Shown in pieces: positions 790 to 50,760 of a stretch of DNA of 64,000 nucleotides (position 1 is the stretch's first letter; every line of letters begins with the position of its first letter). Source of the DNA: Zingiber officinale (lineage: Eukaryota > Streptophyta > Magnoliopsida > Zingiberales > Zingiberaceae). Location: the NCBI RefSeq assembly GCF_018446385.1, contig NC_056000.1, positions 49,322,722-49,386,721 on the forward strand. The letters are read 5' to 3'. The position numbers and the translations under genes were made by a program. The notes beneath the pieces are model-generated. The model did not search any database. It saw only the letters and a list, made by a program, of their open reading frames with translations, and was not told the origin of the DNA.

Positions 790-3700
790 TCAGTATCTAA
801 TCATCCCTGATGCTTTGAGCCCGAGAAGCATCTCAGACAGCCCTTCGTTCAAGTTTCTCGGGCTATATCTCAACTCCTCTTTGGCCTTATCACACGAGTA
901 TGCCCATTGATGTCTCAACACCCTCACAGTCTGCAATAGAAAGTAACAAACAAATTAAACCAGTGTAGGTGCTTCTAGTTTGGACATGTACTGGTTATAT
1001 TTGTCATCAAGCTGAAAATACATGTTTTTTACTATATTAAAAGTGAAAGCACAGTTAGATCTGTTATGCTTATGCAAGATTTATCAATTAACAAATTAAT
1101 TTTCAGGATTCTGATTAAGACGTACGGGGTAGCTGATGAGTGGAAGCTTTCCTGTGATTCGAGAAAAGAAAACAGATATAAAGCCATAGATTTCTATTAT
1201 GCCCAGGGGGATGTGGAGATATGGCTTGCTTGTTTTGGTGATGGCTGCGGCCTTGTCAAAGACTTGATTAAGTGATACGTTTTCTCCGGTGAGCAAGTAG
1301 CGTTCGCCTAGTCGTCCCTTATGCATAGCTGCAACATGTCCACTGACCACATCGTCGACATGGCAAAGTGATTCCCTATCATTCCCATCACCGATATAAC
1401 CAGGTAGCCTCCAATTAAAACGCTCGATCAGCTGCAATGGCCAAAAGAAGGGTGGCATTTTAGATATTTTGTACTTAAACTTGAAGGCACAACTAACTGT
1501 TAGAGTTTATGATTCGGTGTGACGTATGAGGTGCAATGTGAAGGTGCAGGGTTGCAGCCCCTGCAGTATCTACTACTATTAGTATTATTATTGCACACAT
1601 ATTTATATATAGGTAATTAAGATTTCACAGTTATGTGATGTAAGCACTAATTCTCTTGTTATCTATTTTCATTATTATTGCTACATTAAGCATCATGATA
1701 CCTAAAAGCATAACACACCATCGTCAAGCCAATACAACAATGCATGAAGAATAACACTTACTATTCGTGCAATAACATTTCCAGCTGTAAGTTTCCCGGG
1801 ACCATAGATGACTCCTGGGTAAAGAAGAACAATTGGTGTCCCATCAGCTGCAGCTTGCAATGCAATTTTATCTGCAACAGCTTTAGACTTTTCATATTCT
1901 GTGCAAAATGTCTGTCCTTGATGTATCTGCAAATACAAACATAAAGAGATAATTCTGTCATCAATTCAAAGGCATACACAGTAATGCATTTCTGATCACT
2001 TTAAACTTTTGAGATTCCAATAAAAGGGAAGCGTGACTTATTACAATAGATATGTACAATTGTTGACTACTTAAGACCATTCATTTATTTGAATGTTTCA
2101 AAAAATTGATGTGCAAGAATCATGCTACTAAAGTGTTATATCTCCTACCAGAGAATAAATAACTACATGAAACATTGATGCAAAAGTTCCTAAACCATTT
2201 TTAGAAGGGATTATTTGAGCCACATTCCTAGTTTGCCAAAGAAGGTAAGGAAAGAGGGATGACAAAGGGTTATGCCATCAGAACCTTCTATTATAGATTG
2301 CTACAAGAGATCAAGTAAAACTCAATAAATTGGCTTTGATTGTGTGACAATTCAAATGAAAACAATTTGTGTGCTGCTCATATAATCTCATCCGAGTGAA
2401 TACTTTTTTCAGCAACATAATGTCATTGCATATAATTAATATAATGTTGTAAAGAACTACATAACAGGTATAATAAGTACATAGTATTTATTAATGACAC
2501 TGCGTATAATTAATATAATGTTAATTTGAACCTGCAAGAGAAATCTGAACAACACTAACAGAATGTGAATCTGGATTGGTAAACTAAAAACAATGAATAC
2601 CTGTTTCTCATCTGCAATGTAGCCATCAGTTGGACCAAGAGCGAAAAAGGACGATGTGTATATAATCTTCTTCAGTGTCTTTGTTTCTTGAAATGCTCGC
2701 AACACATTCTGTAGACCTCCCACATTTACCTACATTTGAGAAAGGGGGAGTTATTTTACTGCTCCTGTAACCAATATATATGTGTCATTCTATAACCAGC
2801 ACTGTGGGAAGGATGAATTAGATCAGTTCCATTTAGGATGCAGAACTTTAATATCGATATTCCAATGTATCTCATAAAATGAATTACATGCATTTATAGA
2901 CTCAGCATAATCCTTTTAAACAACTACTTCTATTTAAAATATAGGTATGAAAATAGGTATGCCATAGACCAATTGAGTGACAGCAAAAGCACTTCAGATG
3001 ACTTAAATTACTAGATGTTGGGCATTTCTTTGCCTGAACAAGTAATAAAAGGGTGGGATTTAGAGGTACTTTGGACTACTTGGCATCAATCAATTTCTCC
3101 GCTAGAGTGGAATAGGTGATGGGACCTCAAATCATGAACTTCTAGAAAAGTCTTTTGACTTTCACATATTCTCATTCATACTTTAAATTTCTGAACATGT
3201 TCTTCAACACTTGATCACACAAGTCCTTCGACCTTGGCAGCAAGCAGAGCTCTCACACTATGTAGAAATAAAATATTGTTATTGAAATCTACTTCACAAG
3301 AACAATTACATGTATTTATAAACTCAACATAATCCTATAAAGCGTGACTAATTCTACTAAATATCTATTTTTTAAAAAAATATAGGCATAAGAATAAGCA
3401 TGCAAAACAAGTTATATCTTTTATTTTATCTAACATAGGAAATTTCGACAGCTAACTCCTGGCAATTCACATAGATTAATCTCTAAATTTGTCTTAGAAG
3501 AGCTGCAAAAGGATCGTCCTTTTATCTAGAGTTTGACCTTCTCATGAATAGCTCAATTCATTTAATCGATTTTGTATGGAAACCCCAAAATTCATTAAAG
3601 CTTGATGAGGTTTTTTGCTCACTGTGAAGAATCTGGAAGGGTCGGGCAGCCAGGGCTCGACGAGCGCAGCGGCATGGAAGAGGGCGTCACAGCCCTGGAG

Positions 3701-4432: not shown

Positions 4433-4853
4433 GTGGAGGGATGTTATAACATGAGAGAAGATCTCCTAGTCCAAAAAAAGTAGACCAAAGGATGGTCCAC
4501 TCCCAATTACGGCTATATCATAATTGTGATTCAACCGTAATTGCCTGTGATCCCTTTATGGGTTCACCGTTTCTACCAGGTTATAGTTTGGGTCAGAGCG
4601 GGCGGTCGGAGGTCGCCGGAAGTGGGTAAGTGTCCAGGTTGCTGGGCGCTGAGCAGGGGGCGGCCTTCGAGAGGCCTCCGACCGACGACTCCGACCCAAA
4701 CTATAATCTGGTGAGGGCGGTGAACCTATGAAGGGATCACAACTAATTACTACCAGATCGCAATTACGATCTGACCACAATTGGGAGCGGACCATCCCCT
4801 AGTCCACTTTTTTGTGGATCAAGAGATCTGATCTCGTGATAACACCCCTCCAC
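4433..4853. mobile_element. Foldback MITE with about 190 bp inverted arms
   Basis: The left end reads gtggagggatgttat and the right end, reverse complemented, reads gtggaggggtgttat. Similarity continues almost to the centre (about 4630), through blocks such as gatggtcc, ctcccaatt, gtgatccctt and tatagtttgggtc. The whole element is therefore one imperfect palindrome of 421 bp and could transcribe into a long hairpin. No clear target duplication was found, so the superfamily is not assigned. Confidence 0.7.
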
Positions 4854-15440: not shown

Positions 15441-16934
15441 ACTTCCGGCCATGTTAATTATTCGACCTTATGAAGCGTATCATTATAAATAAGTTATTAA
15501 GTTATTGACGGCATTTTCTCATGAAATATATGGATGTTAATACCTGTGCCCTGTTGTTTCCACGTGTAAGATGAACAATGGTAAGAGGTGTGATGCAGTG
15601 GTAAAATACTCGAAGGTCATCTGATCGTGTATAAATTGTACTTTGAAATTTCTCGATAAACATATTAAACGAAAGCTCATCAAAAGTGTTGGGTTTAACA
15701 GCTATCTGCATCTCAGGTGGGTCAAAACGCATCAAATGTTGTCCAGTCATGTCCAGTCATCTTAATAGTCAATTGAAGATGATGTTCTGCTCATGAATGA
15801 AAGGTACTATTTCAGTTTGAGTCGACTAAATGTGAATTCAATTGATTAGTCGTCCGAATCAACTAAACAGAAGATTTTTAGTAACATACCTCTTTTATTT
15901 GAATTTAATCGAACGAGAGAATTTAAGTTGGCTATTTCATCTTGAGTCGACTTAAGTATATTATTATTATTATTATTATTTAATAATCTATATAACCAAC
16001 TAACTAATTGTGAAGATGACTAATCGAGATGGATAGACAATCCAATAGCGTCTAGTGGGCTAGGCAAGCTAGGCATGCCGAACTAACTAATCAAGTGGAA
16101 CACATTGAAGGTGAGCTAGCTCTAACGGATTAGGTCAAACTGAGTAAGCAAATCAATTGTACTGAATGAGTTAATCAAATTAAGTAGACATACCCACCAA
16201 ACCGATCAAGCAACACAGGCCAATTGATTATGTTTAAAACATCAGAGCAAAATCCAGTTTGTCATTTTTTTCTACAGACATAATATTTTTATTATGTTGA
16301 CAGTATAAATTTTCAATTTGAATCTACATGTTTCCGAGGTTGTATGTTATAGAATAGAGACTTCTTATATTTTATAAGAGTAAGAACTCAGTTTGTCTGT
16401 CTGATTAGTGGTGAGGTCCCATTGAGTTCTTATTATTTCATGTCTACAATCCGGTTCATCCAATTATTAAAGAGATGAACCCAACCAAGAATATGAACCA
16501 TAAAAGAAAACACCTATTAAATCGATCACAAGAATACTAGTTACAGTATCCCACCAACCAATATCGGCCATTGGCATAGTCTTGCCAAACAAAGAAAGTA
16601 AATCAAGCACATTAGACATTCTTAAATTCTTATTTCATTCTTTACATATTCCATCCTCACAGATAACTGCTACATTACTATATTCTATCAGGTAAACCAA
16701 ACATTAAAGAGTGGAGAATATACAGCAGAAGTCTATACATTTTGTGCAATAACCAAGCTAAGTTACATGGATTTAGGACTATAGATTCACTACAATCTCA
16801 TGCAGCCAGAGTAAACATTGCAAATCGAAATGTAGAGCAAGAACCCTGGCGAAATGGCGACTAATATATGCGATCTTGGGGAAAAAATGCAACGCTATTG
16901 TTGAACGAAGATAAATTAGAGACCGAAGAGATTC
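15441..16934. other. Spacer and 3' flank of the MAPKKK gene
   Basis: An 82-residue minus-strand frame (15750-15502) has no recognised domain. An (ATT)n microsatellite lies at about 15959-15981. Several gtcgactaa motifs recur around 15820-15960. Roughly the last 250 bp should include the 3' UTR of the minus-strand MAPKKK gene. Confidence 0.45.
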
Positions 16935-36615: not shown

Positions 36616-39600
36616 CTACTCAACATTAACAGTTTGTAAGTCATCGTCGCTAGATTCTGTTAGTTCAACAAAATCCTCACTGCTGGATTTCTCTCCATCA
36701 TCTATCTCCTCGTCAGTGGCATTACCATCTACAAGTAATTGTGATGTAGATTGGATTTGTGAATCAACCGAATGTCTCTCTACTTCGTCATTCTGAAATG
36801 CATCATGGTTTTGAGCAGCAATAGTGTTCGGCATTTCTATGGTAGAACGAGACTTCAATCGACAAACAGACAACCATTCACTAGCTCTTCTTCTCTTCGT
36901 AGGATATTCAAGATAAACCACCTGACCCGCTTGTATTGCAAAAATGAAAGGTTCAAACTTATTGAACCTTCTGTTTGCATTAACCTCTACTAAATTATAA
37001 TTTGGATGTATTCTGGTACCTGTTCTTGGGGTTGGATCATACCATGAACATTTGAACAACACACACCTTTTTATCGGTAATGCAGGATACTCAACCTCTA
37101 TAATTTCCTCAAGTCTACCATAGTAATCAAACTCAGTGTTATTGGTGTCGATAGATCCTTTAACGCAGACACCAGAATTAAAAGTTAATCTCTGCGAATC
37201 TCGTTGTCTCACATGGAATTTGAGACCATTAACATAGTAACCCGAATAGACCATTATTTGGCGTAGGGGTCCAGATGCAAGATTCAATATTCTATCATCT
37301 TATACATTAGATATTCTTTGGTCTTTCACCTATCAAAATAGTAATAAGAAAAATTAGGACCGAATTTATTTTAATAAAGAATTATGAAAATTTCTCTAAC
37401 TCACATATATTTGAAACCATAATGCAAATTCGGTCTCTAACTTTTCAGCAACCTCACTTGCAGTCATCGATGGATTTTGAAGATGTAATTGTTGCTCATA
37501 CAAGCTTTGAAAAAAGGTAATTATAAGAAAATTAGGATATCAAGCAATTAACTACAACGAAATAAAAGCTTGATTAGAGAAGTTAACTTACTTTATGTAT
37601 GGTTTGACCTCATCACAGTTTAAGAGTATGTATGTTCTTGCAGCATGGTATTCTTGTTGAGTTAACCATCTAGAAACAGATGCACCCATTGGTTTACCAG
37701 AAAATTTGAAAATAGAAAGCATCGATGGATCTATATTCTGAGTATCATCGGAATTTCTAGGGCATTTGCGGTGTCTGGTTTTAACATTATCAGCAAAATA
37801 ATAAGAGCAGAAAGAAGATGCTTCCTCCACCAGATAAGCATTACATATTGACCCTTCAACTCTTGCTTTATTACGAACATTATTTTTTAATTTTCTCAAA
37901 AACCTTTCAAATGGGTACATCCATCTGTACTGCACAGGACCAGCTATTCGTGCCTCATATGGTAAATGTACCGGTAGATGTTCCATTGAATCAAAAAAAC
38001 TTGGTGGAAATATGCGCTCCAACTTACAAAGTATGAGAGGAATGTCAGTCTCTAGCTGAATCATATCAACCGTCATAATACACCTCGCTGTCAAATCTCT
38101 TAAAAAAAGACTCAACTCTGTAAGTGCTTGTCAAACATTATTGGGAAGTAAATCATGAAAAGCTATTGGAATAAGTCTTTGCATGAACACATGACAGTCA
38201 TGACTCTTCATTCCAAACATCTTTAATTTGTTCATGTCAACGCATCGAGCCATATTCAAAGCATATCCATCTGGAAATTTGATTTCTTTTAACCAACTAC
38301 ATAAAGCTTGTTTACCATCTTTGTCCAATGTATAACAAGCTTTTGGAAACTTATTGGTTGTTTCATTCTGATGCAATTCTGGTCTGTTGACTAGTTCTTT
38401 TAATTCTTCACGTGATTTTGCAGTGTCCTTAGTTCTTCCAGGTACATTCATCACAGTGTTGAAGATATTATCAAAGAAATTTTTCTCAACATGCATCACA
38501 TCTATATTGTGTCGAATGAGTAGATACTTCCAATAAGGCAACTCCCAGAATATGCTCCTTTTCTTCCAACCACACTTGCACATCCTCACAAGATACTTAT
38601 TTATCTCATCAGAATTAGGCTGAGATACTGGGAGGAATCCATAACTATCTATTTGTTCAATGATTTCTTCACCTGAAGTATGGACTGCTGGGGGAGGTTT
38701 TCTGACTACAACATTCTTTAGAAAATTTTTCTTATTTCGCCTAAAAGGGTGATCCAGTGGTAGAAATTTACGATGATTATCAAACCAAGATACCTTCCCA
38801 CTGCAAGGCAATGAAAATGCATCGGACTCTGTCATGCAATGTGGGCATGCTAATTTACCAGCCGTGCTCCATCCCGACAACATTGAGTATGCTGGAAAAT
38901 CATTGATCGTCCATAATAAGGTCGCATGCAATGTAAAATTAGTTTTACTTGCAATATCATAAGTAACCGACCCTACATTCCATAATTCATTAAGCTCGGC
39001 AATTAGAGGTTGCAAGAAAACATCTATCTTATCTTTTGGATTGGCTGGACCAGGAATAAGCACGGTAAGAAACATAAATTCATCTTTCATGCACATCCAT
39101 GGTGGTAAATTGTACGGTGTTAATATAACTGACCAAGATGAATATTGTTGTCCCGACTGACCAAATGGTTGAAATCCATCTGCAGAAAGTCCCAATCTCA
39201 CATTTCGTGGTTCCATTGCAAAGGAGGGAAAGACAGTATCAAGATGTTTCCATGCAGGAGAATCACAAGGATGACACATTATACCTCCTTCATGCTCATG
39301 CTCATGCTCATGATGCCACAACATGTGGTTAGCTGTAGCTGCATACAAGCGTTGAAGTCTAGCAATTAACGGAAAATAATACATCACTTTCCAAGCAATA
39401 TTTTTCTTCTTCTTCCCTGGTATGCGATTACGATGCTTAAAACGAGGGTGAGTACAGATTTTACATTCATTCAAAGCACTGTCTTCATTCCAAAATATCA
39501 TGCAGTTGTTTATACAACAATTAATTTTCTCTACAGACAAACCTAAACCTCTGATCAATTTCTTTGTTTCATAGAAGCTATCAGTCATTATGTTATCAGT

Positions 39601-40179
39601 AGGGAGCAACTCTGACATCAATTGACAAATGTCATCGTAACATCTTTCTGAGAAATGATGTTCTGCTTTCATATTCAATAACCTTGCTGTAGCTGATAGT
39701 TGTGAATGACCAGAAGGAATGCCTTCCCACACTTCTCTTTCACTAGCCTTTAACATTTCATATAGTTGCTGATATTCAGGGGTTGGTATTTCATCTATAT
39801 TCGAATAATCAACTGCATTCATCGCATCTTGAATCATTGATTGCATTGAAATATCAATATTATTTGATGCTTCAGGAGCTGTAACAGAACCACCAGATGA
39901 CCCAATTGGTTCATATATATAAGGTTCTCCGTGGCAATACCAATTGTAGTAATTTGGCACAAATCCATTTCTACATATGTGCATTTTTACGGTATCTTCA
40001 TCACGAAATGCTCTATTTTGACATTTTTTATGATTGCATGGACACCGTAACTCAGAACCATTCATACATTCTGGATGACTTTTAGCAAAAATCACAAACT
40101 GTTCAACTTCAGCAATAAAATCATCTCTGATAAAACCATTGTCTAATCGATTGTACATCCAAGCTTTGTTCATATACAT
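36616..40179 (-). pseudogene. CACTA TNP2-type transposase with two in-frame stops
   Basis: Exons 40179-37592, 37504-37405 and 37329-36616 (1134 codons). The N-terminus has the transposase-associated domain with C/H spacing (CPCNHKKC...HICRNGF). The middle is the TNP2 transposase (Transposase_21), with LGLSADGFQPFG and the NLPPWMCMKDEFMFLTVLIPGP region in order. The C-terminus holds DUF4218- and DUF4216-like segments (EYHAARTYILLNCDEV; FKCSWYDP). A TGA at 38131-38133 stands where homologues usually have Trp. A TAA at 37300-37302 is codon 10 of the last exon. All else is open, so inactivation is recent. A HEHEHEHE run reflects a small atgctc repeat at 39290-39313. Confidence 0.88.
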
Positions 40180-40499
40180 TGGTATAACCTAAAGAGAATA
40201 TAAATTTAAACATTATTAAACTTGTTGTATCACTTGAAATAAGTTTAAATAAAGAATTATGTGCACAATTTCATCTCACGATCATCATATCATATTACCA
40301 TAAATCACCTCTACACTAGAACAATTAAATGAAACTATTATAAACATGTTGTTCCTTATAACATTATCAAATGAAATAATCATACATATATGAGAAGCAT
40401 CGATCAAACTATATTTTATGCAAGTACAATAGCGAAATTGATCAAAATATGTCACGACACTTAAATTTTCTAGGGTTTACATTGTGCTCAGCTACGAAC

Positions 40500-42869: not shown

Positions 42870-44107
42870 ATGATTGATTCATGGCGGAGTTATTACAAAA
42901 ATTATTATTTTTAATAAAATAAATTTATATTATGATATTAAAAAAAAATATTTTGTATTTGTTTTTACTATTTTAATGTTTAATTGATATTATAATTTTT
43001 TATTATTTTAATATATATTATTTAAATAAATAAATAGTTAATTTATATAATTATTATATATAAAATAGTATATTTATATTAATTTATATAATTATAATTA
43101 TTTAGTCGGGTGTTAGAGAATTATAGAATTAATCTAAATAAAATATTATAAGTATCCGTGTTTTCAATTAAGGTTAGTAAGGAATTACTTTATATTTTTT
43201 TTTATAAGTGTCTTTTATATTTTATATTTTATATTTGGAGGGAATAAGCGGAGCGCATCTTAATATAATATGAAAACTTTTTAATTCATAAGGATCTGCA
43301 GTGTGGAAGGTTTATAGTATGTTATAAATTTTTCAATATAAAGATTTATAATTTTTTTTATAAATTTGTATCAAAATTTTAGGACTAGGTTTATAAAAAA
43401 AATAATGGAGAGAGAATAAAAAGAGAATTTAAAAAAAATAGAATTTGTAGAGAGTGAGTTTTAATAGAAGTTTTTAATTTTTGAGTTGATAATGATACGA
43501 TAGAGCATAAGGTTTATGCTGCGGATGCCCTAAAACCCTGAGTTTATTTCTTTCACTATTTTCCGCTCGATCCCCCTTCTTGCTCTCCCGATCCACCGCT
43601 GACCAATCGTCGTGTCGCCCCGACCGCGAGACACCGGCACCCTGCGCCGCCAACCGCCGTCGTTCGCCACTGCTGCCGCCCTTGTTTTCCTGAATCCTGA
43701 TCCGCTCCTGACGCGAGCGGCCAGACGCGGCCACCCCAGCCAGTCGCGGTCACCGCGGCCAACTCGCGGTTGCTCTTCACTACCCCGCACACGACGCCGC
43801 TCATCCGACCGTCTCTGAGGAAGATGACGTGAGATCGACGCCGATTGTATCACTGGACGCAGCTGCCTCTATTCGCTGTATCGTTGTAAGGCTCTTTGAA
43901 GAAGAGAGAAGGGTAGAGGCGGAGGAAGAGATGGAGAGGGAGGGGGAGGTGTTCGGTTTCCAGGGTTTCAGTTGGGGCGTGGCGTCGTCCTTCAAACTAG
44001 ATTTCCGATTTATGCTTTTTTTTCTGTTGATTTGGATTTGTGTTTCAAGGGTGCATCTTATTGGGGTTTTACATCGTCGAGTGTTTATAATTGGATAAGA
44101 AACCTCT
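42870..44107 (+). repeat. Segmental repeat copy 1: promoter and 5' exon region of the CX9C gene
   Basis: Matches 49727-50740 over its AT-rich upstream part and a GC-rich part (about 43555-44107) that probably holds the untranslated first exon of the gene at 46415. Both copies share the block with tgtatcactgga, gctgcctctattcgctgtat and agaagagagaagggtagagg. No splice donor can be fixed. Confidence 0.7.
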
Positions 44108-46397
44108 CCTTTTGGGATTAGAGACGCCGGCGTGTTGGATTCTGATGCCCTTCTTTTTTAGGGGTTCTTCTGTGTTATTTGCATCTAGGTTAGATTCTGG
44201 TGGTAGGGTAACGGAAGGTAGGTTCGAAAAAACTTGGATTTCACCTTCTAGAACATTTGGTAAGGAAAACAGTGTTTTCATTTTGGTAAGTTTGGGTCCG
44301 GAAGAATTGGGGTTTTGGTGTGAAATTGATATTTTCTTGCATCATTTGTGGGGTTTCTATGCTAATTGCGCTAATTCCTAGCACAATCCTTCGCAGTGTG
44401 AACACATCATTATCAGCACTAATATACTCGTAAACACTGCTTATGCATGACTGAGTTCAAAAAGTATAAAAAGGACAGGAAATTTATTCTTAGCAATTAT
44501 ATTTCTCTGGGCTTATCCTTATGCAAGTTTTTGCATGATGCGAACAGTCTCAAATCGGATTGACTGCACGGCACCTACGATACTTATGGAGTACACCAAA
44601 GAGAAGCAGAGAAAGAGATGCTGACAGGATCTTTCATTTGCTTTGAAGGAAAAATCACATAAATTGCTTTAATGACGACAAGTAGTTAGCCTCTTACATT
44701 ATCCTAAGGCATGGTAGACATAGGAAGTAATCTACTGATGGATAATTTGATTATGGGTTAGGCCTTGGACTTGGATAATCACTGAACCAATAGCAGTTAT
44801 TGTTGTTTGATTACTTTCTTATTCATGTTGGAGAATGTGAGATATTTATAAGTAACCTTTAATATCTACAATTAGGTCATCGAGACTCCCCCTAAAGCCG
44901 ACTTAAAATTATTATTAAACCCTATCTTGCTACGAGTTATTCAGTTTGAGGATCTCTCGTAATATAGTTAGTAAATCTGCTAACAGTTGGAACTAAAAAA
45001 ATGAGATGTCGATCTCCTTGGATTGTACCTTATTTCAAAAGCACTTTACACATTTTTGAGTATTTTTTATTCTGGGTACAATTTTTTTTTCATTCATATA
45101 GTTGAAGTCTTACAAACCTTATTATTTGTGTAATATATATGCATTTTGAGTTTTATTTTGCACAATGGTATTCATGGAAGTAGTTATTATGTGTACCTCT
45201 TGGAATTTGTATCTTGTTGCATAGTTGATTCGAACTTAATAGCAGCCAAAGAGGTCGGCATGTGGTCATTATAATAGGAGCCATGCCAAGCTAATCATCA
45301 TAGATATCCACTTGTGTCATCATAGGTTGGCATAGTTTTTCTTTCAAATTTTGGTATTTTCCAGTCTTTTGTCAGTTTGTGCCATATGCTCACTTTGTTG
45401 GCATGCATGTATATTATATTTTCTATGTATTGCTTCAGAAAATTGATGCTATTTGTGCACTTTAAAGTTGAATTTGCGCAAGAAAAAAACTAACTCTTGT
45501 GAATAAAAATCTTTTTTATCTGTATGCTTTCATCTTTATAGACATCCATGCAAATCTAAAGAAGGATAAACTGTAGGCAGGATCAGCTGAGCTCTTAACA
45601 GATCTTTCGTAATCAGGAATATACTTTGCTTTTTTAAAATAATGGAAGGACAATAGGGGAATTTCTTTTAACATGGTTTTTACCATTGCAAAATGTTTTA
45701 TATTGAACATTGTTTTTATGTCAGCTTTTGCAACTATCAGTGACCCAAAGAAAGAGAGGACATACCAATTGAGGAAGCATGGATGGTATGGAAATATTTT
45801 AATTATTATTTTTATTACTTTTTCTTCCATTAAAAAAATAGAAATTGTTATGACTAGCTTATATAAGTGGGCTATCTACAAAAGACCAGACCACATTTTT
45901 TTATTAGTTTATGCTCAAAAGGGACTTTTTAGGACTAGCTATTTTTTTCAAGGATATGGCACAAAGTTTATTTATTTATTTTTATTTTGTTGACACTATG
46001 CTGAAAAAATAAAATTAAAAAATTCTAGTTCTCATCATGTGTTATGCAGTTGATCAATTCATCAATGTCACTTAGGGTTAAACTATCAAAAAGTGTAATC
46101 TTTGTGATTCCGATGACTAACGTTTTTGTTTATTGAATATATATACAATCAATTTGTTCTTCTTTGACACGTGTAGCTAAAGAAGTGATCTTGTAATTTG
46201 TGAATCAGCTTTACTAACCTGAACATTTTGTTACCATTTTCTTGCTGCCATCAACAAACGAGCAACTAATTCATAAACTTTGCTTACTAGATCACTATAG
46301 ATGTTGAAATCTATGGATTTAACAGGGTAAGTGTTGCTGTGTGAAAGAATAATTCTAATATATAAATTTAATGTGCTCTTGTTTTATACCTTTTCAG
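44108..46397 (+). other. Probable first intron of the CX9C gene
   Basis: AT-rich sequence between the presumed 5' exon region and the acceptor ttttcag at 46391-46397. No coding exon was recognised. The frames at 45516-45993 are low-complexity. Confidence 0.45.
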
Positions 46398-46414: not shown

Positions 46415-48501
46415 ATGGAGGAAACTATCATTGTTGGTGATGACCTTATGATGGGCCCCCCATCACCTATCATTCCTCCAGAGATTGCATCTCATGTCCT
46501 GGAAGGTGTAGACTTATGTAGGGGTGTCAAAAATGAACCCGACCCGACGACCCAACCCGAGTCGACCCGAAAAAAATCGGGTTCGGGTTGGGTTCGGGTT
46601 GACCCGGGTTGACCCGGGTTGGCTTAAATATAGGGTTTTGTGGGTTTTTTTAGAGTTAAATCAAATTTTATTTTAAAAATTTAGATGTTTTTATGTATAT
46701 TAATATCATGTTTGTATGATAATGATGGAATATTGAGATAAAAGTGAAGAATTATAGGGAAAATAGCCCAAAAAAGTCGTTTTGAATCGGATTTTCGGGT
46801 TATATGGGTCGGGTTCGGGTTGATCGGGTTGGTCGGGTTCGGGTTGGGGTGTTTTGGGTTGAACTCGGGTTCGGGTCGGGTTCGGGTTGGGTTAAAAAAA
46901 AAAAAAAAAAAACTCAACCCGACCCAACCCGACCCGACCCACCCGAATTGACACCCCTAGACTTATGTGATCAAGTATTGCGGAACTTTTTCTTGTGTAA
47001 GTGAGAGTGTATATTCATATTACACTCTAGTGGTGTGACATTGGGAATCCATTCTATCAGATGTGAAAATATGATGTTGATTAGTCTTTGTCCTTTATCT
47101 GAATGTTGAATAAAGTACAAACTTATTCAGTAATTGGTGCAGGCTTGCAAATCAATGATGTCGAGCCATTTTGTCAAGATGAGATCATCTTGTATCAAGA
47201 GTGTGCTGCAAAGAGAGTAAGCCATGGTGTTATAATGAAGTTGAGTTGTTTCTCTTAAGTTACAATATAACTTATATGTTAACCTGAAATGTGAACAGGA
47301 TAAGGAGTTAAGACGTAAACTTTTTGATAGTGAACGTAAGCTGGGTTTGTCTATGCCCTTGGGAGATGCAAAGGAACGAGCTGCTAATCTTGAAGCAGAA
47401 ATTAAAACTCTAGAAAGGTATGAGCATGGCGTCACTCTTTGCCCGATCTTTTCTATTCTTTACAAAGTTATAGAGTCCATGTGCATTTTAATGTAATATT
47501 ATGTGACAACACTTGGACTAAATAGCTAGAAGAAAACAACTAATGGTTTGACCAAAATGGAGGATTAGATCCATGCCTACTAGTTGTTTATTTACTGAAT
47601 GTTTTGAATTGAATCATACATAAGTGAAATAGAAAGCAAGTTATGCATCACAGTACTTTATTAGAGACTAGTATATCTAGGAAAATATTTCCTGAGAATA
47701 AGCTACAGTGATTTAATAGATGGATCTCTGGCACAGCCTCTTTGATCTTTTTGCTTGATATTTATTAAATTATCCAAGTCAAATAACATTTCTGATAATC
47801 ATCATTATGCTTTAACTGCAGAACCTTCTGATGGCCATTTATGAAGTTTCTTGTGTTATTTAGGCGTATGATTCTTGCAAGTGGAGTTGAAGGAATGGAA
47901 GGATTCCGCCAACGTTGGAGTTTGCATGGGCGTATTGAGGATACCAAGTATTCCTTTTTTTCCTCCTGATCTTAAGACAATCTTTTTTAGGATATATGTG
48001 TGTGTGCGCATTTTGTTTTTATTATTTTATATCATGTCTGCATACTTTAAGTCTTAAAGAGCCAAGAGTTAATGTTGATAGATAATTGGGTTGATATTAT
48101 ATTTCTAATGTCAATCACTTATTATTCAATGACGCCATTTCTAAAACTCTCATAGGGTTGAATTTGATAGTTTACTAAAAATTTGATGTAAACTATACAA
48201 TATGATATTGACAGTTTTAGCTTTTGGAATATGTTATTTCACTAGTTTTTTTTTTCAACTTAAAAAGTTTCGTATAGTCGACCCTACGATAAGACTTGGT
48301 TGTCGTTATTGTTGTTGAACAGTTTTTTGTATCAGAAGATATCTTATCAATTCTATGTCTGTTCATTTATCTTGATTCTCTCTCTCTGTTTTTCTGCACA
48401 GAAGAAGAATGGAATCTTTGAAAGAGGGGATCACAAAGAGTAAATCGGAAAATATTCCAGAACCTAAAGTAGACCCAGCTAAGAAGAAATGGTTCTTTTG
48501 A
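46415..48501 (+). CDS. Twin CX9C (CHCH-type) small protein, exon split by a MITE
   Basis: Coding exons: 46415-46518 plus 46968-46996 (one exon split by a MITE), 47143-47216, 47299-47417, 47864-47947 and 48402-48501. Without the insert the frame is 169 residues. Cysteines form two CX9C pairs: CDQVLRNFFLC and CQDEIILYQEC. This helix-turn-helix signature marks small proteins oxidised by the Mia40 pathway in the mitochondrial intermembrane space, including respiratory-chain assembly factors. The C-terminal half is charged and helical (DAKERAANLEAEIKTLERR) and ends KKKWFF. All splice phases agree and no stop was seen outside the MITE. With the MITE retained, translation stops within it after about 66 residues. 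It may instead be spliced out in frame (see findings). The start is the first ATG after the 46391-46397 acceptor. The family is not named with confidence. Confidence 0.75.
46519..46959. mobile_element. hAT-type MITE inside a coding exon
   Basis: Perfect 12 bp inverted ends taggggtgtcaa/ttgacaccccta and an 8 bp target duplication gacttatg (46511-46518 and 46960-46967), diagnostic of the hAT superfamily. The ends are rich in gggttcgggt/acccgaaccc, the middle is AT-rich, and an A run lies at 46894-46911. No transposase. Confidence 0.93.
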
Positions 48502-48880: not shown

Positions 48881-49452
48881 CTAGGAGGTATTGCGCCAAC
48901 ACTATCTATAATAATATCCACTCATTTCTGTTTTTATTTTTCATAACTTAAAATTTGAATTCTCTATTAGTTTTATCTTCTGGTCTACACATTTTATCTA
49001 TTGTACACATAAAATATTAATTCTTTTAATTATTATATCTATTATATCCATTGATTTAGAGTGAGAGTTCTTATGTTCTATGTTCTAAATATTAGATTAT
49101 TAATTTTTCTATTATTTTTTTTCTTATCCAACGTATAGTATGAGATTCTTGTCTATTTAACAATACCTAGGAGGTATTGCGCCAACACTATCTATAATAA
49201 TATCCACTCATTTCTTTTATTTTTCATAACTAAAAATCTGAGTTCTTTATTAGTTTTGTCTTCTCGTCTACGCATTTTATCTATTGTACACATAAAATAT
49301 TAATTCTTTTAATTATTGTATCTACTATATCTATTGATTTAGAATGAGAGTTCTTATGTTCTATGTTCTAAATATTAGATATTAGTTTTTTTATCATTTT
49401 TTTTCTTATCCAACGTATAGTATGAGATTCTTGTCTATTTAACAATACCTAA
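48881..49452. repeat. Tandem duplication, 286 bp unit, two copies
   Basis: The copy at 48881-49166 is repeated at 49167-49452 with few differences. Both begin ctaggaggtattgcgccaac or its remnant and end atttaacaatacct. The high identity implies a recent event. Confidence 0.9.
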
Positions 49453-49726: not shown

Positions 49727-50740
49727 TGATTGCTTCGTCACGGGTGGAGTTATTAAAAATATTTATTTATTTTAATAAAGTAAATTTATATTTTGCTATT
49801 TTTTAAAAAAAATTATTTGTTTTTGCTATTTAATTGATATTATAATTTTTTTACTATTCTAATATATATTATTTAAATAAATAAATAAATAGTTAATTTA
49901 TATAATTATTATATAAAAAATAGTATGTTTATATTAATTTATATATTTATGATTGGTGTGTTGGAGAATTATAAATTTAATCTAAATAAAATGTTATAAG
50001 AGTCAATATTTCAGTCACTTTATTAAGGTAACTGTGAGATAAGATAATTAAATACAATTAAGGTTAAGTAAGAATTACTTTATAAAATTATTTAGATTTT
50101 TTTTTAAATTTTATAAGTGTCTTTTGATATTTTTAGGGAAGAAATGGAACACATCCTAATATAATAAGAAAACTTTCTAATTCATAAAGCCCTAAGTTTT
50201 ATTTCTTTCAGTGTTTTCCGCTCGATCCCCCTTCTTCCTCTTTCGATCCATCGCTGTCCAATCGTCGTGTCACCCCGACCGCGAGACATTGGCACCCTGC
50301 GCTGCCAGCCGTCGTCGTTAGCCACTGTCGTCGCCCTTCCTAATCCGCTCTCGACGCGAGTGGCCAGACGCGACCACCGCAGCCAGTCGTGGTCACCGTG
50401 ACCAACTCGCGGTTGCTCTTCACTACCTTGTACACGACACCACTCATCCGATTGTCTCTGAGGAAGATGACGCGAGATTGACGCCGATTGTATCACTGGA
50501 CGTAGCTGCCTCTATTCGCTGTATCGTCGTAAGGCTCTTTGAAGAAGAGAGAAGGGTAGAGGCGGAGGAAGAGATGGAGAGGAGGTGTTTGGTTTCTAGG
50601 ATTTCAGATGGGGAGTGGCATCGCCCTTCAAACTAGGTTTCCGATTTATGTTTTTTTTTTCTGTTGATTTGGATTTGTGTTTCAAGGGTGCATCTTATTG
50701 GGTTTTACATCGTCTGAGTGTTTATAATTGGATAAGAAAC
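49727..50740 (+). repeat. Segmental repeat copy 2 of the CX9C gene 5' region
   Basis: A diverged copy of 42870-44107 with several short deletions. It keeps the promoter/5' exon part but lacks all coding exons. At 50741-50760 it is followed by 20 bases identical to 43773-43792, a piece from within copy 1, and then unrelated sequence. Confidence 0.75.
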
Positions 50741-50760
50741 CTCTTCACTACCCCGCACAC

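Follow-up and report, generated by a model that had tools for sequence, protein, structure and literature searches.

Transposable elements that are removed by splicing from the exons they interrupt have a precedent, although such cases have seldom been seen. Both spliced exonic hAT elements such as maize Ds1 and plant introns derived from transposable elements have been published, as far as the consulted excerpts of this literature describe them. According to the excerpt of PMC5432752, exonic maize Ds1 starts with a TAG stop and supplies five splice sites, three of them donors and two acceptors, no more than 35 bp from its ends. The titles of Dennis 1988, Wessler 1991 and Giroux 1994, cited in PMC3260210, also concern maize Ds1 or Ds as introns. 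Another group are the DNA-transposon introners, whose splice sites are drawn from the element and/or the target duplication (Gozashti 2022, PMC9860276). The preliminary description of the locus studied here had appealed to such introners as builders of splice sites from target-site duplication plus element, and the excerpted survey does describe them in this way. Some introners add codons, as in Aureococcus, where 12 bp including the 8-bp duplication are gained. For land plants, the excerpted text of this large survey records none (PMC9860276). In plants, excerpts describe ONSEN in Arabidopsis as having turned into an intron, on the basis of nanopore cDNA (PMC12112155), and LTR/Copia elements of 4.7-4.8 kb in Brassica rapa exons as introns, from a comparison of gene structure and expression (PMC9241368). 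MITEs that alter splicing are described in carrot (hAT-like) and mulberry (excerpts of the review PMC12595863 and of PMC6593561). Among the best matches in the open-licence literature, judged by title and start of the abstract, we found no equivalent of a MITE-derived intron in plants.

Results

A DUF7803 gene interrupted in its first coding exon

The locus lies in a 64-kb window, by which we mean the whole stretch of DNA that was analysed. The features are listed in Table 1. A likely exon acceptor AG, recognized by eye, ends at 46397 upstream of the ATG. Fusing the flanks of the MITE at one copy of the duplication and reading the five coding exons yields an intact flank-joined protein of 169 residues. 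It matches PF25086 (DUF7803) with 299.6 bits against a curated cut-off of 27; the alignment covers residues 1-169 and positions 9-177 of the 178 in the profile. This full-length match qualifies it as a DUF7803 protein. Because the match runs over residues 1-169, the MITE interrupts an exon that was ancestrally continuous. The element had been placed inside a coding exon before, and this exon can now be named as the first coding one of a gene of the DUF7803 family, apparently a conserved plant gene.

Table 1. Positions of the gene, the MITE and the candidate introns in the window
Feature	Position	Strand	Remarks
First coding exon, left part	46415-46518	+	from ATG, MEETIIVGDD...GVDL
First coding exon, right part	46968-46996	+	native donor GTAAGT at 46997
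Coding exon 2	47143-47216	+	
Coding exon 3	47299-47417	+	
Coding exon 4	47864-47947	+	
Coding exon 5	48402-48501	+	with stop codon
hAT-type MITE, non-coding	46519-46959	.	441 bp; terminal inverted repeats 46519-46530 and 46948-46959
Left target-site duplication GACTTATG	46511-46518	+	8-bp direct repeat
Right target-site duplication GACTTATG	46960-46967	+	8-bp direct repeat
Candidate intron A	46518-46960	+	GTAGGG...CCCCTAG; +2 residues
Candidate intron B	46506-46960	+	GTGTAG...CCCCTAG; -2 residues; donor outside terminal-repeat helix
Candidate intron C	46524-46960	+	donor GTGTCA inside MITE end, part of the element's terminal repeat; +4 residues
Branch-like motif TTGAT	46820-46824	+	A at 46823, 137 nt upstream of acceptor, no AG between

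The MITE splits the codon for the first cysteine of a C-X9-C motif, and a second C-X9-C lies in exon 2. We would read the protein as a twin CX9C protein of the mitochondrial type; the Pfam CX9C model scored 12.2 on the flank-joined protein, below its cut-off of 26.4. Solved structures gave no match up to E 1. In viral contigs the DUF7803 protein had no relative; four stretches there fit a peptide pattern, none of them confirmed. The name DUF7803 was unmentioned in the open-licence literature searched. No second coding copy of the gene was found within the 64-kb window.

Anatomy of the MITE

A 441-bp MITE with an 8-bp target duplication had been reported, and both hold to the base. The ends TAGGGGTGTCAA and TTGACACCCCTA are complementary at 12 of 12 positions and thus form perfect 12-bp inverted repeats, and GACTTATG is present on both flanks, as is usual for a hAT MITE. 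With two further bases on the left and one on the right this repeat grows to the 11-mer TAGACTTATGT, which stands directly repeated at 46509-46519 and 46958-46968. The short terminal inverted repeats, a length below 600 bp and the absence of coding capacity (all six frames hit a stop inside the first 52 codons) likewise correspond to a hAT MITE. TAGGG ends are typical of hAT elements. Size, ends and the 8-bp duplication fit a hAT-type MITE, as judged from the sequence, and the insertion is clearly real and more than chance.

The window contains one copy of the MITE. The exact 12-mer end is present solely at the two termini of the MITE; allowing two mismatches adds seven sites in the window, nine in total, while shuffles gave a mean of 3.96 and reached nine once in 100. 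Inside the MITE the motif CGGGTTCGGGT is present in five copies, and it has no exact match elsewhere in the window. Two matches outside the window were discarded: a MITE-end pattern match in viral contigs (locus L001, 68% GC), with one end copy and short MITE matches (best E 0.022), is attributed to chance, and the exact end sequence was matched in the open-licence literature by base-editing work that is unrelated by title and start of the abstract.

Surroundings in the window

Because of a GRAS gene, a tnp2 transposase, retrotransposon domains (all Pfam) and a plastid psbJ RNA match, we infer that the window is repeat-rich plant DNA. The tnp2 transposase of a CACTA-type element is a 685-residue open frame at 38134-40188 (-) (Transposase_21, 263.7 bits), adjoined by a DUF4216 frame at 36619-37299 (-). 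The match to the Rfam plastid psbJ 3'UTR RNA (16376-16509 (-), 102.7 bits) probably marks a transfer of plastid DNA to the nuclear genome. The sole tRNA call, by ARAGORN, is tRNA-Thr (ggt) at 4716-4808 (-). Upstream of the DUF7803 gene, 43531-44107 and 43001-43291 resemble 50185-50744 (88%) and 49852-50187 (72%) downstream of it, in the same order, as if the upstream region had been duplicated around the gene. Just 3' of the gene, 48881-49169 and 49167-49451 form a head-to-tail duplication of about 289 bp with 94% identity. A short stretch at 3193-3225 (-), reading DLCDQVLKNMF, resembles the interrupted exon but lacks the MITE, and was weighed as a possible empty-site paralogue. Its alignment of 43 columns scores 37, and the highest score among 60 first-order resamplings of the exon was 36; the match is marginal and too slight for a call.

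Candidate introns and what chance provides

The preliminary description had derived a donor at 46518 and an acceptor at 46960 from the borders between duplication and MITE, with two extra residues in frame after removal, and had named 46506 as a second in-frame donor that costs two residues. All of this is borne out. The GT at 46518 and the AG at 46959-46960 are both there. Removal of candidate intron A leaves an open 516-nt message (171 residues, PF25086 293.1 bits), and removal of candidate intron B an open 504-nt message (167 residues, 287.5 bits). The borders are therefore GT-AG with the frame kept, as in a spliceosomal intron. A message that retains the MITE runs into a stop after 65 residues and matches PF25086 with 66.3 bits over residues 1-38. 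Three donors within 18 nt, 46506, 46518 and 46524, are each in frame with acceptor 46960. We examined 96 GT/GC-AG pairs in total, of which 16 proved open and in frame, and 8 of these 16 use an acceptor at 46975. With this acceptor, donors up to 46518 drop the first cysteine, and donor 46524 retains one at the spacing C-X8-C. No GT/GC-AG pair with a start from 46415 to 46599 restores the exact ancestral message.

How much the preserved frame can tell depends on how often it arises by itself. With a G-N6-G target and TA...TA ends the intron borrows one G from each duplication copy; since 8 bp minus two Gs leave 6 nt, any such hAT insertion keeps the frame automatically. The G-N6-G form is found in 24 of the 503 octamers of this CDS, with an open frame in 24 of 24. 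We also simulated 1006 insertions of the same MITE (503 CDS positions in both orientations), and counted in-frame, stop-free GT-AG pairs with the donor at most 25 nt from one MITE end, the acceptor at most 25 nt from the other and a donor U1 energy of -4.4 kcal/mol or lower. A qualifying pair was present in 390 insertions (39%) at a net change of up to 6 nt and in 516 (51%) at up to 12 nt, which makes in-frame splicing options commonplace for this MITE. The exact G-N6-G border arrangement is roughly a 1-in-20 event, and the coincidence of the splice borders exceeds chance modestly. We do not take the preserved frame as a sign of selection, since G-N6-G targets keep it automatically and in-frame pairs are common by chance.

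Donors, acceptor and predicted fold

U1 pairing energies were calculated in register. They amount to -4.5, -5.2 and -4.9 kcal/mol for donors 46518, 46506 and 46524, and to -4.9, -4.5, -5.7 and -0.7 kcal/mol for the native donors, so that by U1 the candidates are similar in strength to three native donors and surpass the fourth. The window has 3144 plus-strand GTs, of which 10.8% equal or exceed 46518 in stability and 7.5% equal or exceed 46506. By plain consensus, 46518 reaches 5/9, a value attained by 40% of these GTs, and 46506 reaches 6/9 (14%). The terminal repeat of the MITE brings its own GT donor at 46524 (GTGTCA preceded by GGG), similar in U1 strength to native donors, and given this donor exonic copies may need just a nearby AG.

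The acceptor 46960 is weak. T occupies 2 of the 21 positions from -25 to -5, against 8, 7, 12 and 12 of 21 in the native introns, and the sole branch motif within 60 nt lies at -9, none being found between -60 and -15. A branch site and a U-rich 3' stretch, which are typical of spliceosomal introns and not strictly required, are thus missing at the usual place, and for this reason we file the locus as a hAT MITE insertion with a candidate intron, and as no more. The GC content of the candidate intron is 0.44 overall and 0.60 and 0.62 in the first and last 50 nt; the four native introns have 0.29-0.33. The acceptor is the first AG downstream of 46776.

The fold of a 507-nt RNA was predicted, which is suggestive at most. 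The MITE ends pair in a stable predicted terminal-repeat helix (z -7.66 against 100 shuffles), in which donor 46518 and acceptor 46960 would be buried: the probability of being unpaired is at most 0.12 at 46519-46523 and 46955-46959, and 0.86 and 0.94 at the border Gs 46518 and 46960. For the six bases of donor 46506 it is 0.16-0.76, and we prefer this donor over 46518 because it is the more open of the two in the predicted fold. The earlier preference for 46518 is thereby shifted; the site exists and is in frame, but it is predicted to be paired. The A at 46823 is predicted to be unpaired and adjoins a hairpin (46824-46946) that would bring this branch A closer to the AG at 46960.

Age of the insertion

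The absence of stops in the rest of the gene had been taken to fit continued function. The rest is indeed stop-free, but this is weak evidence. Stops are created by 73 of 1521 single substitutions. With the substitution rates used, the probability that a silent gene is still stop-free after 1 My is 0.73-0.89; after 5 My it is 0.43 at a rate of 7e-9 per site per year. None of the 20 pairs in ends and duplications differ, which allows a recent insertion and also a divergence of up to about 14%. As a silent gene stays stop-free with sizeable probability and the insertion may be young, the open remainder is no proof of continued function.

Discussion

We consider it plausible, with a probability of roughly 0.45, that an intron is being born here by leaky splicing across the MITE. 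A hAT-type MITE has inserted into the first coding exon of the DUF7803 gene, and the transcript would be leakily spliced across it. Splicing would use the acceptor 46960, which the final TA of the MITE forms with the G of the right duplication. The donor of first choice would be 46506, in the upstream exon and outside the helix, and 46518 (duplication G plus TA of the MITE) and 46524 (MITE end) may serve as well. Relative to the ancestral protein, the products would be changed by -2, +2 or +4 residues where the first cysteine of the CX9C pair lies or immediately ahead of it, so that the gene would keep part of its function and the MITE would act as a nascent intron. From the intron birth put forward in the preliminary description, the border anatomy, the in-frame sites and donors similar to native ones stand; the weak acceptor, the predicted helix and the automatic frame speak against it.

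A recent loss-of-function allele is nearly as likely. The MITE would be retained, the reading frame would end at the stop after 65 residues, the message would be degraded and another allele, a paralogue or a homeologue would provide the function. The poor acceptor and the high GC content of the candidate intron point this way, as do ends held in a stable predicted helix and the young age that perfect ends and duplication permit. The gene is undamaged over 169 residues outside the MITE and has no second coding copy in the window, which argues against a null allele; the intact remainder is, however, expected under either reading because the insertion may be young, and a young unspliced insertion would look identical in sequence to a nascent intron.

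Splicing around the MITE might instead draw on different cryptic sites, such as the acceptor 46975 or an upstream donor, and would leave the first CX9C broken or missing. The number of in-frame open pairs, half of them with this acceptor, makes such products conceivable, but they would lose the first cysteine or shift its spacing, and scanning favours the first AG as acceptor, which is 46960; we regard this explanation as improbable. The MITE could also belong to a haplotype that was collapsed or mis-joined, or to a decaying duplicate, and so be foreign to the working gene. Local duplication, as in 43531-44107 and its downstream repeat, speaks for this, but the target-site duplication and the terminal repeats are clean, which favours a real insertion, and no second coding copy lies in the window; we regard this explanation as very improbable.

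If the MITE is spliced as in the nascent-intron reading, the locus would show, in nature, a plant intron as it arises, while the element it comes from can still be recognized. A wider proposition, which we hold to be doubtful, is that hAT MITEs with TA...TA ends are frame-safe intron makers in land plants: G-N6-G exonic targets would provide GT-AG borders in any phase and add exactly two codons whatever the length of the element, and the present locus would be one live birth. In that case, fixed exonic copies should be enriched for G-N6-G duplications. Since two codons are what remains of an 8-bp duplication once two Gs have been borrowed, this arithmetic offers a simple genome-wide test of intron-making by hAT MITEs in plants.

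Among the known systems, as far as the cited excerpts describe them, ONSEN and the Brassica Copia elements are retrotransposons, unlike the hAT-type MITE found here. The carrot and mulberry elements are plant MITEs as well and change transcripts, but by exonization, splice variants and alternative splice sites and not as whole-element introns of the kind proposed here. Introners form multi-copy intron families, whereas one copy is present in 64 kb here; they share with this locus splice sites made from element and target duplication and, in some cases, added codons. In maize Ds1/Ds, the acceptor does not use the G of the duplication as the candidate acceptor does here, and the present MITE has GGGTTCGGG-type subterminal repeats. 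The likeness to the hAT element Ds lies in the 8-bp duplication, the length of about 400 bp, the TAG start and the splice sites, here candidate ones, near the element ends.
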